A DNA stretch of 64,000 nt from Sorangium cellulosum (GTDB lineage: Bacteria > Myxococcota_A > Polyangia > Polyangiales > Polyangiaceae). Below, piece after piece: positions 45,613 through 50,504 of the stretch; the first letter of the stretch is position 1, and each line of letters starts with the position of its first letter. The notes under the pieces are model-generated. The model worked only from the letters and a program-made list of their open reading frames with translations. It did not search any database and had not been told where the DNA came from. The stretch lies in NCBI RefSeq assembly GCF_002950945.1, contig NZ_CP012673.1:11670501-11734500 (forward strand), in the 5' to 3' direction. The translations under genes were made by a program, and so were the position numbers.

Positions 45613-46881
45613 TCACCAGCAGCTCTGGACGACCGAGCCCTCGTCGCGGGGATCCCTCTTGTACATGGGGAGGCTGCAGCTGCCGTCCGCGAGGCAGGCG
45701 CCGTGCCGCCCGCTGGGCGACTCGGGGCAGTCGTCGTCGGAGGTGCACGGCTCGGTGCGCGCCGAGAAGTCCAGGCACGCGCGCTGCCCGCGGAGCGTGC
45801 TGACGCACGCCGTCAAGGTGCCGACGCCGCCGCAGTCGTTGTCGTTCCGGCACGGCTCGCAGAAGCCGCCGTCGCCCACGCAGGCGCCGAAGCGCGGGAT
45901 GCAGGCCCCTTCGGTGCACTGGTAGTCGAGCTCGCAGTCTTCATCGTTGTTGCAGGTCCGCGCGCAGCGGTCCTCGCCGCCGATGGAGACGCAGCGCTGG
46001 CCGGCGATCCGCGAGCAGTCGAGATCGCTCTCGCAGGGGGCACACTGCGCCCGCTTGATGCAGGCGGTCCGCAGGAGGCAGACGGACCCCTCGATGAACT
46101 GGTTGCCGTTCGCGTTGAACGCGGCGGGATCGACGCACTCCTCCTCGGTCTCCCCGCAGAACGAGTTGTCGCCCTTCTCCGTACCGCAGATCGCGTGGGC
46201 GTCCCGGGTGAGTGCGCACTCGTAGCCGTCCGCGCAATCCGCGTCGCTGGCGCAATGCGGCTGCGTGCAGTAGGCCTCGGCGTCGCCCTCGCCCTGCCCC
46301 CTGCACTCCAGGCCCAGCGAGGTGCACGCCGCCGCGTCGCAGGTCGGAAGGACGCAAGGCTTGCCGTTGCTGCACTTGCCGAGGGTGCAGTTGGGATCGT
46401 CCCCGCCGCACGCATCGGTGTCGCGCCGGCAGTCGGCGAGGTTGTTGTCGCACTGCGCCAGGTTGCACGCCGAGCCGTCGGGGCAGCTGCCGTACTGGCC
46501 GCACTCGTTGCCGAACGGGCAAGGTGCGCCGTAGCCCTGGGGTTTGCCGTGCGGCTGGCAAACGGAAATCGTGTCGTTTGTGTCATCTTCCTGGGCCGGC
46601 CCACAGACCTGGTCTGGGCGGCAGTCCAGGTGGTTGCTGCACTCGAGCACGCAGCGGTTGTCCACACAGGTATTCCCTGCCAGGCAGAGCGAGGGCATGC
46701 ACTTACCCTCACATTCCCCGTTGACGATCACCCCGCCGAAACATTCGTCCCGCGGTTGGTCCGAGGAGCAGGCGCTGCCCGCGATGGCTGCTCCGACCGC
46801 CAGGCAGCCGAGCACCAGGAACGCGTAGATACGACGGGAACGGGGCTGACGGGCGCTCTGCGATGCGACGACCTGCTGCAT
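45613..46881 (-). CDS. Cysteine-rich lipoprotein (54 Cys in 422 residues)
   Basis: Signal peptide and lipobox (VGAAIAGSACSS). By direct count 54 of 422 residues are Cys. The pattern C-x-x-D/H-x-D-C recurs (CSNHLDC, CASDADC, CESDLDC, CNNDEDC, CRNDNDC, CTSDDDC), as in the small disulfide modules, possibly Ca-binding, frequent in myxobacterial surface proteins. It ends QSCW. It must fold with about 25 disulfides outside the cytoplasm. The divergent neighbours across 172 bases are two thioredoxin-fold lipoproteins and an outer-membrane barrel, which fits a role in its folding or display. No function known. Confidence 0.85.
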   Translation of the reverse strand: MQQVVASQSARQPRSRRIYAFLVLGCLAVGAAIAGSACSSDQPRDECFGGVIVNGECEGKCMPSLCLAGNTCVDNRCVLECSNHLDCRPDQVCGPAQEDDTNDTISVCQPHGKPQGYGAPCPFGNECGQYGSCPDGSACNLAQCDNNLADCRRDTDACGGDDPNCTLGKCSNGKPCVLPTCDAAACTSLGLECRGQGEGDAEAYCTQPHCASDADCADGYECALTRDAHAICGTEKGDNSFCGETEEECVDPAAFNANGNQFIEGSVCLLRTACIKRAQCAPCESDLDCSRIAGQRCVSIGGEDRCARTCNNDEDCELDYQCTEGACIPRFGACVGDGGFCEPCRNDNDCGGVGTLTACVSTLRGQRACLDFSARTEPCTSDDDCPESPSGRHGACLADGSCSLPMYKRDPRDEGSVVQSCW

Positions 46882-47053
46882 AGAACCTCAGCGCGGGCGG
46901 TGCCCGCGGGTCGGGGCAGGCACGGAGGGCCTGCCCGGAAATTGCGGAGGGACCCCTCCGGGAACGAGGCGGCTGCGCCAGGTTGCCCTTGACGCGTCCC
47001 GCGCCGCCCAGAAGAATGAGCTCCTACTACACCATACTTCAGGCGGTGGCATC

Positions 47054-47758
47054 ATGCGAATCGACGCAGTTCTCGGTTGGATGGGCCTTTTCGTCGTGGC
47101 GGCCCTGGGGCTCGTGGGCTGCGGGGGTGAGGATCCCATTCCGGCTCCTGAGTTTCCCGAGGGGACGGGGCAACCCGCGGCCAATGCTGTCAGTTATCCC
47201 GAAGGACCGTATGGCATCAACCCCGGCAAGGTGATCGCGAATTATCAGTTCGTCGGGTTCGCCAACGCCGAGAAGAACAACAGCGAGATGCAGGCGATTC
47301 AGCTCGCCGATTTCTACAACCCGACCGGGGCGGATGTCTTTCCCGAGGGATCGCCTTACGGCGCCGGGGAGGCGAAGCCGAAGGTGCTGCTGATCGACGT
47401 ATCGTCCGTGTGGTGTGCCCCTTGCAAAATTGAGGCGGAGACGGTCCTGCCCCGGCTTTACGCCGAGTACCAGCCGAAAGGCGGCGAGTTCCTGGTCCAG
47501 CTCGCGGACGGAAGGAATCCGGGCGAGGCGGCCGTGGTAGACGACCTGTATCGCTGGACGACCCGGTACGAGGTGGCGTACCCGTCGGCGATCGACCCCT
47601 CGTACAAGCTCGGCGCGCTCTTCCAGGCGGACGCCTTCCCCGCGAACATGATCGTCAAGACGCAGGACATGACCATCGTCGAGGTCGTCGCCGGCGTGCC
47701 CGAGGAGGGTAGCAGTTTCTGGCGTACCTTCGAGAAGGTCATGAACGGCGAGAAGTGA
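47054..47758 (+). CDS. Thioredoxin-fold lipoprotein with WCAPC active site
   Basis: 234 residues. The lipobox is LGLVGCGG. After a Pro/Gly-rich linker, residues about 100-230 form a TlpA/thioredoxin-like domain with W120-C-A-P-C124 in VSSVWCAPCKIEAETVLPRL. The cis-Pro loop is less standard (AFPANMIVKT). It probably works as an extracytoplasmic thiol reductase or isomerase. It starts 172 bases from the divergent Cys-rich lipoprotein gene and is followed by a second TlpA-like gene. Confidence 0.88.
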   Translation: MRIDAVLGWMGLFVVAALGLVGCGGEDPIPAPEFPEGTGQPAANAVSYPEGPYGINPGKVIANYQFVGFANAEKNNSEMQAIQLADFYNPTGADVFPEGSPYGAGEAKPKVLLIDVSSVWCAPCKIEAETVLPRLYAEYQPKGGEFLVQLADGRNPGEAAVVDDLYRWTTRYEVAYPSAIDPSYKLGALFQADAFPANMIVKTQDMTIVEVVAGVPEEGSSFWRTFEKVMNGEK

Positions 47759-47914
47759 ACAAGCCTCCGCGCGGGCGCGCCGTCGATCACCGCCGGACGG
47801 CGCGCCTACGCGAGAGACCGAGCCAGGGCGCGACACGAAGCGCCCGCGACAGGGTGCCCTCATGCCGGCCGTTCTGCCCACGCCGGCCCCACCGATACCG
47901 ACCCGGAATCCCCT

Positions 47915-48442
47915 ATGACTCGAACTACCCGCTGCGCGCTCTCGTTGGCGTTCACCGTCCTCGGCCTCGCGGCCTCCGGCTGCGGAGCGGCCGCTCGCCC
48001 GTCCTCGGCGAGCCCGGCGCCTGATTTCTCGCTGCCCGCCCTCGACGGCAAGACGGTCCGGCTCTCGGACTACGCCGGCAAGAGCGTTGTGCTGATCGAC
48101 TTCTGGTCGACCACCTGCGACCCGTGCCTCGCGGAGATGCCGCACCTCGTCGAGCTCTACAAGAAGCACAAGGACAAGGGGTTCGTGGTGCTCGCCGTGT
48201 CGCTCGACGGACCGGAGTCCCGCGCACAGGTGAGCAGCACCGTCCACGACCGAGAGATGATCTTCCCCGTGCTGCTCGACGAGGAAACGACGGTCACCGC
48301 CAGGTACAATCCGAAGCGCGAGCTTCCGTTCTCCGTGCTCGTCGGCAAAGACGGATCGATCCTCCAGAAACGCAGCGGTTACCAGCCCGGCGACGAGGCG
48401 GCGCTCGCGGGCGACGTCGAGAGGGCGCTCGGCCAGCAGTAG
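47915..48442 (+). CDS. TlpA-family thiol-disulfide lipoprotein, C68-D-P-C71
   Basis: 175 residues with the lipobox ASGCGA. The fold starts with APDFSLPALDGKTVRLSDYAG and has the redox pair C68/C71 in WSTTCDPCLAEMPHLVELY; the usual Trp before the first Cys is Thr (TTCDPC). The cis-Pro region is LPFSVLVGKDG. AhpC/TSA-type features (LAVSLDGPESRAQV) are present. It should exchange disulfides in the periplasm. Second of two such genes ahead of the predicted barrel at 48513. Confidence 0.92.
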   Translation: MTRTTRCALSLAFTVLGLAASGCGAAARPSSASPAPDFSLPALDGKTVRLSDYAGKSVVLIDFWSTTCDPCLAEMPHLVELYKKHKDKGFVVLAVSLDGPESRAQVSSTVHDREMIFPVLLDEETTVTARYNPKRELPFSVLVGKDGSILQKRSGYQPGDEAALAGDVERALGQQ

Positions 48443-48512
48443 CCGGGCGGGCCGGCGCTGCCGACGGCGACAGGGCGCTCCACGGGCCGGAAGTCCGTGG
48501 TAGGAACGCGAG

Positions 48513-50504
48513 GTGCGCTCACCTCTCCACGCCTCCTGCGCTTGCCTGTCCGCAGCGTTGCTCCTCGCCGCCCTTCCGGCGGCGGCGGTCGACCTCCCGA
48601 ACGTCGGCGGCGAACCGATGGCGGTCGACGTCGTGAACACCGCCGCCGCGGTGTATCACTTCGATAACCGGAACGACAATCCCAACATAACGGCGCGACA
48701 CCTCGACGACAATTACGGGGAGCTGCTCGAGCGGCTGGACGCGCAGATCAACTGGTGGCGCCTGCAGCTCGGAGCGCGGATCAACGCCTCTTTCTATCCG
48801 ATCAGCCCCTCGGCGACGGACATCGATCTGCAGCGGAAGGTCCTGCGCAAGGAGGTCAATTTCGGCTTGGACGACGCCGCGCGGGAGCTCCACTCCCGGT
48901 ACCGGACGACGGTCTATCCGGCAAAGCTCTGGCTCACCTACACGCAGCCGGGCGTCGAGGCCACGGTGGGCGACTTCTACGCCCAGCTCGGGCGCGGGCT
49001 CGTGTTCAGCGTGCGCAAGCTGGACGAGCTGGCCATCGACACGACCGTGAGGGGCGGCAGGCTCGTGCTCGACAAGGATTTTCAGGTCCTCCGCCTCGAG
49101 GCGACCGCCTTCGCGGGACAGATGAACCCGCTCCGTGTGGACGAGGCGAGCGGGAGGCGGCTCCACGGAGATGGATCGCCGCTCTTCTTCTTGTTTCCAG
49201 GCAGGGACAGCGCCGGCGACCTGAGGGATCTGCGCACCCAGGAGGTCACGGCGAAGGCGCGCCCGAACTACCTCGAGGACACCGCGCTCGGCGGACGCCT
49301 CGAGGTGGGCGTGAAGGGCGTGGAGATCGCGGCGAACGGATCGCTGCTCCTGCGTAAATCGTACACCGAGGAGCTCCTCCGCTGCCAGCGCGAGCACGGC
49401 GGGGATGAGGGGGACGCGGTGGGCGCATGCGCGGCGGAGTACCCCGAGTTCGAGCTCACCGGCGCGCCTCACGCGCAGCGATTCAACGAGATCCGCACGT
49501 TCAGCGGCTCCGTGAGCGTGCCGTCCGTCGCGAACCACGGGGACGTCTATGTCGAGGTGGCCGGGCAACAGCTCCGCGAGCGTCATCGCGCCAGCGCCGC
49601 CGCCGGTCAGGGAGACCTGTCGGGGTACGCGGTCTACGCGGCGGCGAACGCGCGCGGCGGCCCGGTCGCCTTCCTGCTTGAAGGGAAGCACTACCGGCGG
49701 TTCTTCTCGCTCTCCTCCAACATCGACACCAACGCGCTGTCGAACGTGGGATTCAACGCGCCGGAGTTCGCAGGAGTCGCCTACAGCCAGCCCCCGACTG
49801 CAGAGCCCATCTACACGAAGCCGCTCGGGGCGCCCAACGTCTGCGTCACGGGCGGGCGCGGGCGCGTCGACTATCGCTTCAACCGGAGCACGGCCGTTTA
49901 CGCCTGGCTCGGGCGCTACGTGAGCTTCTCGGAGCGCGAGGAGAACAACGACTGCAAGACCGATGACCGGTACCGGACCGGCACCTGGGACACCGCGGTA
50001 GGTGCCGAGATCGATCTCGACTCCGGCCGCTCCCACGTGCGGGCGTGGGCCGGCGGGCGGCAGGTCGACGCGGCCGCCGTCGACGGCCTCTTCTACAGCG
50101 AGAGCTACGTCCGCTACGACGTCGTGAAGCACCTCGCCGGGCCGTTCTCCCTCCAGGTGCAGGGCAACAACCAGCGCCAGTACAAGACCGACGCGTACGG
50201 GTTCGAGGGGGAGAACTACATCGCGCTCCAGTGGTCACCGCACCTCACCGCGATCCTCGGGCACGAGTACACGTCGCCGGAGCTGGGCGGGTGCGAGGTG
50301 CCCGAGGGCGGCGGGATCTGCCACTACTTCAACGGAGGGCTGCAGTGGAAATCCGGAGGAAGCGGCACAGCCCTCCAGCAGGTCTTCGATACGGCGCAGC
50401 TCTTCGTGGGCCAGCGGCGCGGCGGGCTGCGCTGCGTCTCCGGCGTGTGCCGGGTCTTTCCCTCGTTCGAGGGCGCGCGGCTCGAGCTCGTCTCGAGGTT
50501 CTGA
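48513..50504 (+). CDS. Predicted outer-membrane beta-barrel, DUF6029-like
   Basis: 663 residues from GTG 48513, with TAGGAA upstream. A signal peptide ends at AAAVDLP. The mature protein alternates amphipathic strands (INWWRLQLGARINASFYPI, AKLWLTYTQPGVEATVGDFY, VDYRFNRSTAVYAWLGRYVS, FSLQVQGNNQRQYKTDAYG) and ends LELVSRF, with the terminal aromatic residue typical of BAM-assembled barrels. Extracellular loops carry six or more Cys that could form disulfides. The DUF6029 assignment is from general resemblance and is less certain than the barrel call. It follows two TlpA-type lipoproteins, so a shared function is likely. Confidence 0.8.
   Translation: MRSPLHASCACLSAALLLAALPAAAVDLPNVGGEPMAVDVVNTAAAVYHFDNRNDNPNITARHLDDNYGELLERLDAQINWWRLQLGARINASFYPISPSATDIDLQRKVLRKEVNFGLDDAARELHSRYRTTVYPAKLWLTYTQPGVEATVGDFYAQLGRGLVFSVRKLDELAIDTTVRGGRLVLDKDFQVLRLEATAFAGQMNPLRVDEASGRRLHGDGSPLFFLFPGRDSAGDLRDLRTQEVTAKARPNYLEDTALGGRLEVGVKGVEIAANGSLLLRKSYTEELLRCQREHGGDEGDAVGACAAEYPEFELTGAPHAQRFNEIRTFSGSVSVPSVANHGDVYVEVAGQQLRERHRASAAAGQGDLSGYAVYAAANARGGPVAFLLEGKHYRRFFSLSSNIDTNALSNVGFNAPEFAGVAYSQPPTAEPIYTKPLGAPNVCVTGGRGRVDYRFNRSTAVYAWLGRYVSFSEREENNDCKTDDRYRTGTWDTAVGAEIDLDSGRSHVRAWAGGRQVDAAAVDGLFYSESYVRYDVVKHLAGPFSLQVQGNNQRQYKTDAYGFEGENYIALQWSPHLTAILGHEYTSPELGGCEVPEGGGICHYFNGGLQWKSGGSGTALQQVFDTAQLFVGQRRGGLRCVSGVCRVFPSFEGARLELVSRF

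Follow-up and report, generated by a model that had tools for sequence, protein, structure and literature searches.

Why does a gene for a protein with 54 cysteines (Cys) stand back to back with genes for two thioredoxin-fold (Trx) lipoproteins and an outer-membrane barrel in the genome of Sorangium cellulosum (GCF_002950945.1; 14.56 Mb, a single contig)? The four genes, encoding the Cys-rich protein CYS1, Trx1, Trx2 and the barrel, lie in a stretch of 64,000 nt (NZ_CP012673.1, 11,670,501-11,734,500, forward strand), referred to here as the window, to which the coordinates in Table 1 apply. An earlier note on this DNA had placed the four genes at these positions, with CYS1 divergent from both TlpA-like lipoprotein genes and the barrel gene, and our analysis recovers the same set in the same arrangement. 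The note read them as a dedicated machine for the folding and the export or display of Cys-rich proteins. From that proposal, the linked and conserved set and the dedicated disulfide handling are retained here, whereas the barrel as an exporter or display pore and the obligatory four-gene machine are not. With about even confidence, we consider the locus to be two dedicated thiol-disulfide pairs joined in one cassette at the cell envelope.

To assess the linkage, 80 named loci were gathered by the barrel alone, so that the Cys-rich gene was not a selection criterion. The barrel search set was a closer alignment, the first barrel alignment being too diverse for the collection scan. A gene with at least 25 Cys was taken as Cys-rich and was scored if it directly adjoined a Trx gene and was transcribed away from it. 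This arrangement is present in 55 of the 80 loci, whereas 1000 shuffles of the Cys-rich labels among the other genes of each locus gave 9.9 such loci on average and never more than 20, indicating that the linkage is not due to chance. In about 10 of the 25 loci without the linkage, the contig stops close to the Trx or barrel gene. The synteny comparison thus speaks against an unlinked Cys-rich gene in relatives, the outcome that the earlier note had named as fatal to its proposal. The linked set, in the conserved order CYS1 / Trx1-Trx2-barrel, spans Sorangium, Polyangium, Minicystis, a Byssovorax metagenome-assembled genome (MAG), Labilithrix-type MAGs and more distant Myxococcota. In a separate tally of neighbourhoods, CYS1 is divergent from a Trx gene in 28 of the 30 assessable Polyangia genomes that contain it. 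Genes in the relatives were called with a simple codon-usage gene finder, which failed on low-G+C loci; these were rechecked by a frame-wise profile search, and copy numbers derive from searches.

Cys-rich genes as such are common in these genomes, indicating that the unusual feature is the linkage itself. The DNA pattern for C..D.DC..G..C has 32 matches in this genome and none for the control, and the motif is present in all 144 Polyangia genomes, only 55 of which have a barrel match. A general machine for Cys-rich proteins, as the earlier note had it, does not agree with this distribution, since genomes without a detected barrel are also rich in Cys-rich motifs, and a general role of the cassette for all such proteins was set aside for the same reason.

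The linked Cys-rich proteins form a single family: in an alignment of 51 sequences, Cys is invariant at 20 columns and conserved to over 90% at another 15. The Cys of CYS1 comprise one in the signal peptide, the likely lipidated C38 and 52 others, from which up to 26 disulfides are predicted. The lipobox, GSAC, is weak, and ordinary lipoboxes are present in many relatives. CYS1 has no match in Pfam or NCBIfam, and its confident AlphaFold2 model (predicted local distance difference test score, pLDDT, 85.8) has no fold match in the PDB at E 0.001 or better, a result that does not make the fold new. The Cys count after the predicted lipid Cys is even in 41 of 44 CYS1 proteins, the three odd-count cases looking like misplaced lipoboxes or starts, so that all of these Cys are more likely to be paired in disulfides than to be free or bound to metal. 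An even Cys number is also found in 72 of 74 mature barrels, and as judged from these counts CYS1 and the barrel are probably both fully disulfide-bonded. A metallothionein-like or free-thiol nature of CYS1 was considered and rejected on the even counts. CYS1 presumably arrives at the cell surface.

Other unusual reading frames were observed around CYS1 and the barrel in the relatives. A second, unrelated Cys-rich lipoprotein with C..C repeats (KCEGKCEG) and about 31 Cys lies 3' of CYS1 in about 20 loci, for example at L176:1022-2320 (-) and L190:16377-17606 (+), and is absent from the window and the Sorangium loci. Continuous open reading frames of 1310-1363 aa adjoin CYS1 in locus L101 (4905-8945, +) and, in similar form, in L093, L095, L255 and L260. 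That of L101 has a MYXO-CTERM-like segment in mid-protein followed by a second lipobox-like signal, and looks like two exported proteins sharing one reading frame. Cys make up 17% (189 of 1110 aa) of a protein encoded a few genes from the barrel in genome G094 (L107:14097-17429, +).

Both Trx proteins resemble the TlpA/ResA enzymes. Trx2 belongs to them by score (AhpC-TSA, PF00578, 88.7 bits, with a CDPC site), and its closest solved relatives are ResA and DsbE (PDB ResA 4nmu at E 1e-21). Trx1 scores under the cut-offs for Pfam Redoxin (16.9 bits, E 0.0055) and for the ResA-like model of NCBIfam (E 3e-7), and its likeness to TlpA/ResA is supported by its family of relatives. The CXXC of Trx1 is invariant across 82 relatives with highly variable dipeptides, including CGYC, CTYC and CVYC; Trx2 always has CxPC in the aligned set, which had been chosen by that motif. 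The Thr that the earlier note saw in place of the active-site Trp of Trx2 indeed stands directly before the first active-site Cys. Within the Sorangium group this position is mostly T (also S or I), and in other relatives it is W, F or Y, so the Thr is, as far as these sequences go, typical of Sorangium, Polyangium and Minicystis as a group and not a peculiarity of this genome. The window proteins include no PF01323 match and no CPHC-type site as in DsbA, CAPC and CDPC being found instead. A DsbA-like CPHC is carried by the Trx adjoining CYS1 in genome G043.

In the CYS1-divergent Trx1 of genome G025 (L253:3690-4694, -; contig C64), the codon for the first Cys of the active site is replaced by an in-frame TGA; read as selenocysteine (Sec, U), it gives GWUPYC. 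A hairpin is present 3' of the TGA, and the genome has SelB (331 bits against a cut-off of 242); this Trx1 is a predicted selenoprotein. The replacement of the first Cys by Sec marks this residue as the reactive nucleophile. Such cases would be compatible with an oxidase, an isomerase or a reductase, and do not indicate the direction of catalysis. Sec readings were also observed in further Trx1-like proteins, namely FWUGxC in G053 and G015 and VWUGAC in G136; the loop of the hairpin in G053 is AGGTCT. An in-frame TGA at the same position occurs in Trx1-like genes of L266, L267, L268, L269 and L237, and in the Trx gene adjoining the barrel in L116. The TGA-bearing genes, with motifs GWUPYC, FWUGxC and TFUPVC, encode selenoproteins by prediction. 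SelB is present in genomes G025, G053, G015, G136 and G108; no SelB over the cut-off was found in the window's own genome. In L265 (G010:C705), the TGA of a Trx1-like gene falls at the Trp ahead of the CXXC (AG[TGA]CGPC), and more likely reflects misassembly or decay of this gene copy than Sec.

The barrel belongs to DUF6029 (PF19494; 47 bits against a cut-off of 27, E 2e-12), its only Pfam match, and is 69-73% identical to Sorangium barrels. Its AlphaFold2 model, built with 74 sequences, reaches a pLDDT of 91 and a predicted template modelling score of 0.88, and 24 barrel strands were counted from the DSSP string of the model. The earlier note's Cys in the barrel loops are borne out: with both ends taken to be periplasmic, an orientation that is itself inferred, all eight Cys of the mature protein are predicted by the model to lie in outer loops. 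Two of them, C641 and C646, are invariant in 74 of 74 barrels, and each of 19 barrels examined from other parts of the phylum has a motif of the type C.GG.CR..P.F.G (CX4C), which in eight of them is the sole Cys pair. The best structural alignments (VIA) are with the FimD/PapC ushers (Z 13-15, maximum 15.2, over most of the length). The OccK and AlgE pores align nearly as well (Z 12-13.7), so that only the description "large barrel" is safe. Usher homology was set aside because these unrelated porins score almost as high, and the barrel has no usher match in Pfam. Several Labilithrix-type loci (L201; L202, 6920-8800, -; L208; L210; L218; L231) encode, near the barrel, a lipoprotein (about 616 aa) that combines a Trx-like domain (WCGTC or WCGPC) with a di-haem domain resembling MauG/MbnH. 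In view of this neighbour, a function in redox or metal chemistry may be considered for the cassette.

The distribution of the genes shows that the pairs are separable. CYS1 lies beside a divergent Trx1 in genomes without a barrel match (G007, G016, G043, G025 and G001); for G001, whose assembly is 74% complete and whose contig stops past Trx2, the absence of the barrel is uncertain. Conversely, a Trx-barrel pair without a Cys-rich gene nearby is found across Myxococcota. These findings do not support one obligatory machine made up of all four genes. Substitute barrels were sought after CYS1-Trx1-Trx2 in L254 and after Trx1 in L262 and L264, and the search returned one ammonium transporter and two proteins without a family match. 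Moreover, Trx1 is duplicated in one Polyangiaceae group, with one copy beside CYS1 and the other beside the barrel. Eleven of the 12 barrel-linked Trx1 copies form a single clade (support 98/94), separate from the CYS1-linked copies, and the twelfth, from Minicystis, is sister to the CYS1-linked copy of Minicystis, which points to a separate duplication that has split in the same way. Such a split after duplication would look like the pattern expected of client-dedicated enzymes.

In the two-pair arrangement that we favour, Trx1 would handle the disulfides of CYS1, and Trx2 those of the barrel, chiefly the invariant CX4C hairpin. Both enzymes are predicted to be lipid-anchored. They would meet their clients in the periplasm, while CYS1 is not yet surface-exposed and the barrel not yet inserted, and work as isomerases or oxidases recharged by the general systems of the cell. 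Elsewhere in the genome there are three VKOR, several DsbA-type (DSBA) and two DsbD-type genes, indicating that the cassette is not the only disulfide system of this bacterium. The linked set is explained most economically by dedicated disulfide handling; that the neighbours are clients, the direction of the reaction and the localisation are inferred.

Several points weigh against this arrangement. Adjacency of genes alone does not prove a catalytic relation, and the studied members of the TlpA/ResA family are mostly reductants rather than oxidants. In about 10 loci, Trx2 stands with Trx1 and CYS1, and the barrel's own operon has only a Trx1-type neighbour; because Trx2 stays with CYS1 in these rearranged loci, the assignment of Trx2 to the barrel is weaker than that of Trx1 to CYS1. 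CYS1 is tail-to-tail with the barrel gene in G140 and G086, and no Trx gene was found near the barrel in loci L183, L217 and L250. In addition, many MAGs in the 80 named loci are also among the class genomes searched, so the counts are not independent.

Other explanations for the linkage were weighed against the same evidence. One export or display machine, in which the 24-strand barrel is the pore or platform that delivers CYS1 and both Trx proteins fold CYS1 en route, is unlikely. In its favour, the gene order is conserved, the barrel is large with usher pores as its best alignments, and TraA/TraB sets a myxobacterial precedent in which a barrel cooperates with a Cys-rich protein at the surface. 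However, the occurrence of CYS1-Trx1 in genomes without the barrel, and of barrels without CYS1 across the phylum, argues against it, and the usher likeness is unspecific. The barrel may alternatively be a pore for small molecules, metals or polysaccharides, with CYS1 as a surface binding partner and the Trx proteins performing a redox step on the cargo (e.g. copper), which we regard as unlikely. The reported similarity of DUF6029 to Wzi-type polysaccharide barrels (PMC9603273) and the Trx-MauG/MbnH-like lipoprotein near some barrels would agree with such a pore, but in most lineages the cassette has no recurrent neighbour for polysaccharides or metals, and even Cys counts fit closed disulfides, not metal thiolates. 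Clustering of the neighbours as a test of a Wzi-type role gave no recurrent polysaccharide export gene, not all neighbours being annotated.

A looser relation, in which the genes are envelope genes of one regulon or of a synteny conserved by lineage with no catalytic relation, appears quite unlikely. Divergent genes often share a promoter region, and the neighbouring Mrp and S1-domain genes are likewise syntenic (26 loci each); yet the linkage of the cassette spans many families, outlasts rearrangement of the barrel part and tracks the Trx duplication. A role of the Trx proteins in cytochrome c maturation with incidental neighbours, the alternative raised in the earlier note, is very improbable: the ResA/TlpA family includes such enzymes, and the nearest solved relatives of Trx2 are ResA and DsbE, but no maturation gene recurs in the neighbourhoods of the 80 loci, and CXXCH proteins are near few loci only, mostly as the MauG-like fusion. 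Finally, the CX4C hairpin, predicted to be surface-exposed, may be redox-active and relay thiols across the outer membrane together with the Trx proteins, remodelling the disulfides of CYS1 at the surface. We consider this highly doubtful; if true, it would constitute a trans-outer-membrane disulfide system.

Table 1. Features of the CYS1 / Trx1-Trx2-barrel cassette, in window coordinates
Feature	Position	Strand	Remarks
CYS1, Cys-rich lipoprotein-type	45613..46881	-	422 aa, 54 Cys; C-terminus ...SCW
Divergent intergenic region CYS1/Trx1	46882..47053		172 bases
Trx1, TlpA/ResA-like lipoprotein	47054..47758	+	lipobox LVGC, VWCAPC
Trx1 active site C121-A-P-C124	47414..47425	+	first Cys predicted to be Sec in L253
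Trx2, ResA/TlpA-like lipoprotein	47915..48442	+	lipobox ASGC, TTCDPC
Trx2 active site C68-D-P-C71	48116..48127	+	Thr directly before first Cys
DUF6029 outer-membrane barrel	48513..50504	+	GTG start, 663 aa, 24 predicted strands
Invariant CX4C, C641-C646, small hairpin ahead of last barrel strand	50433..50450	+	

Within the CYS1/Trx1 intergenic region there is one sigma-70-like match (46989-47017, +), a consensus match only.

The cassette would tie the uncharacterised DUF6029 barrels and an unnamed family of Cys-rich lipoproteins to specific thiol-disulfide enzymes, and offers a testable rule of one Trx per client, which also applies where a Trx gene has been duplicated. Disulfide catalysts of bacteria are generalists in most cases, and dedicated lipoprotein versions in the envelope, among them one with predicted selenocysteine, would show how proteins with about two dozen disulfides are made. 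The invariant CX4C may be the first handle on DUF6029 function. No paper on this four-gene cassette was found in a literature search conducted mostly without subscription journals. The literature searched does not appear to describe these families, their pairing rule or the variant with selenocysteine; the principle of a Trx dedicated to a client is already known.

The comparison with known systems sets out what the cassette shares with each. By score the window barrel is a member of the DUF6029 barrels, on which one speculative paper was found, subscription journals lying mostly outside the search. It reports HHpred similarity to plug-less Wzi-type polysaccharide barrels and proposes a polysaccharide role from that similarity alone, and the passages considered mention neither Trx linkage nor CX4C (PMC9603273). 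In the outer-membrane exchange of Myxococcus, the Cys-rich surface protein TraA works with the outer-membrane barrel TraB (PMC12045341). That pair includes no Trx partners; TraA carries the MYXO-CTERM tag and TraB is equipped with an OmpA domain, whereas CYS1 has no MYXO-CTERM tag (no NCBIfam match) and the window barrel no OmpA domain in Pfam. Trx2 is a ResA/TlpA member by sequence, but its context here is a Cys-rich lipoprotein and a barrel, not cytochrome maturation, and it has Thr for Trp before the CXXC. The principle is closest to DsbL/DsbI of uropathogenic E. coli, which acts with arylsulfate sulfotransferase as its one disulfide client, as far as a reference title in PMC6067686 conveys. 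There too a Trx-fold enzyme is dedicated to one disulfide-containing client and not to the whole periplasm. DsbL, however, is an oxidase of the DsbA type and has a membrane partner to itself, DsbI. The enzymes here are instead lipoproteins similar to TlpA/ResA, the cassette showed no gene of the DsbB/DsbI type, and the candidate clients are a multi-disulfide lipoprotein and an outer-membrane barrel.

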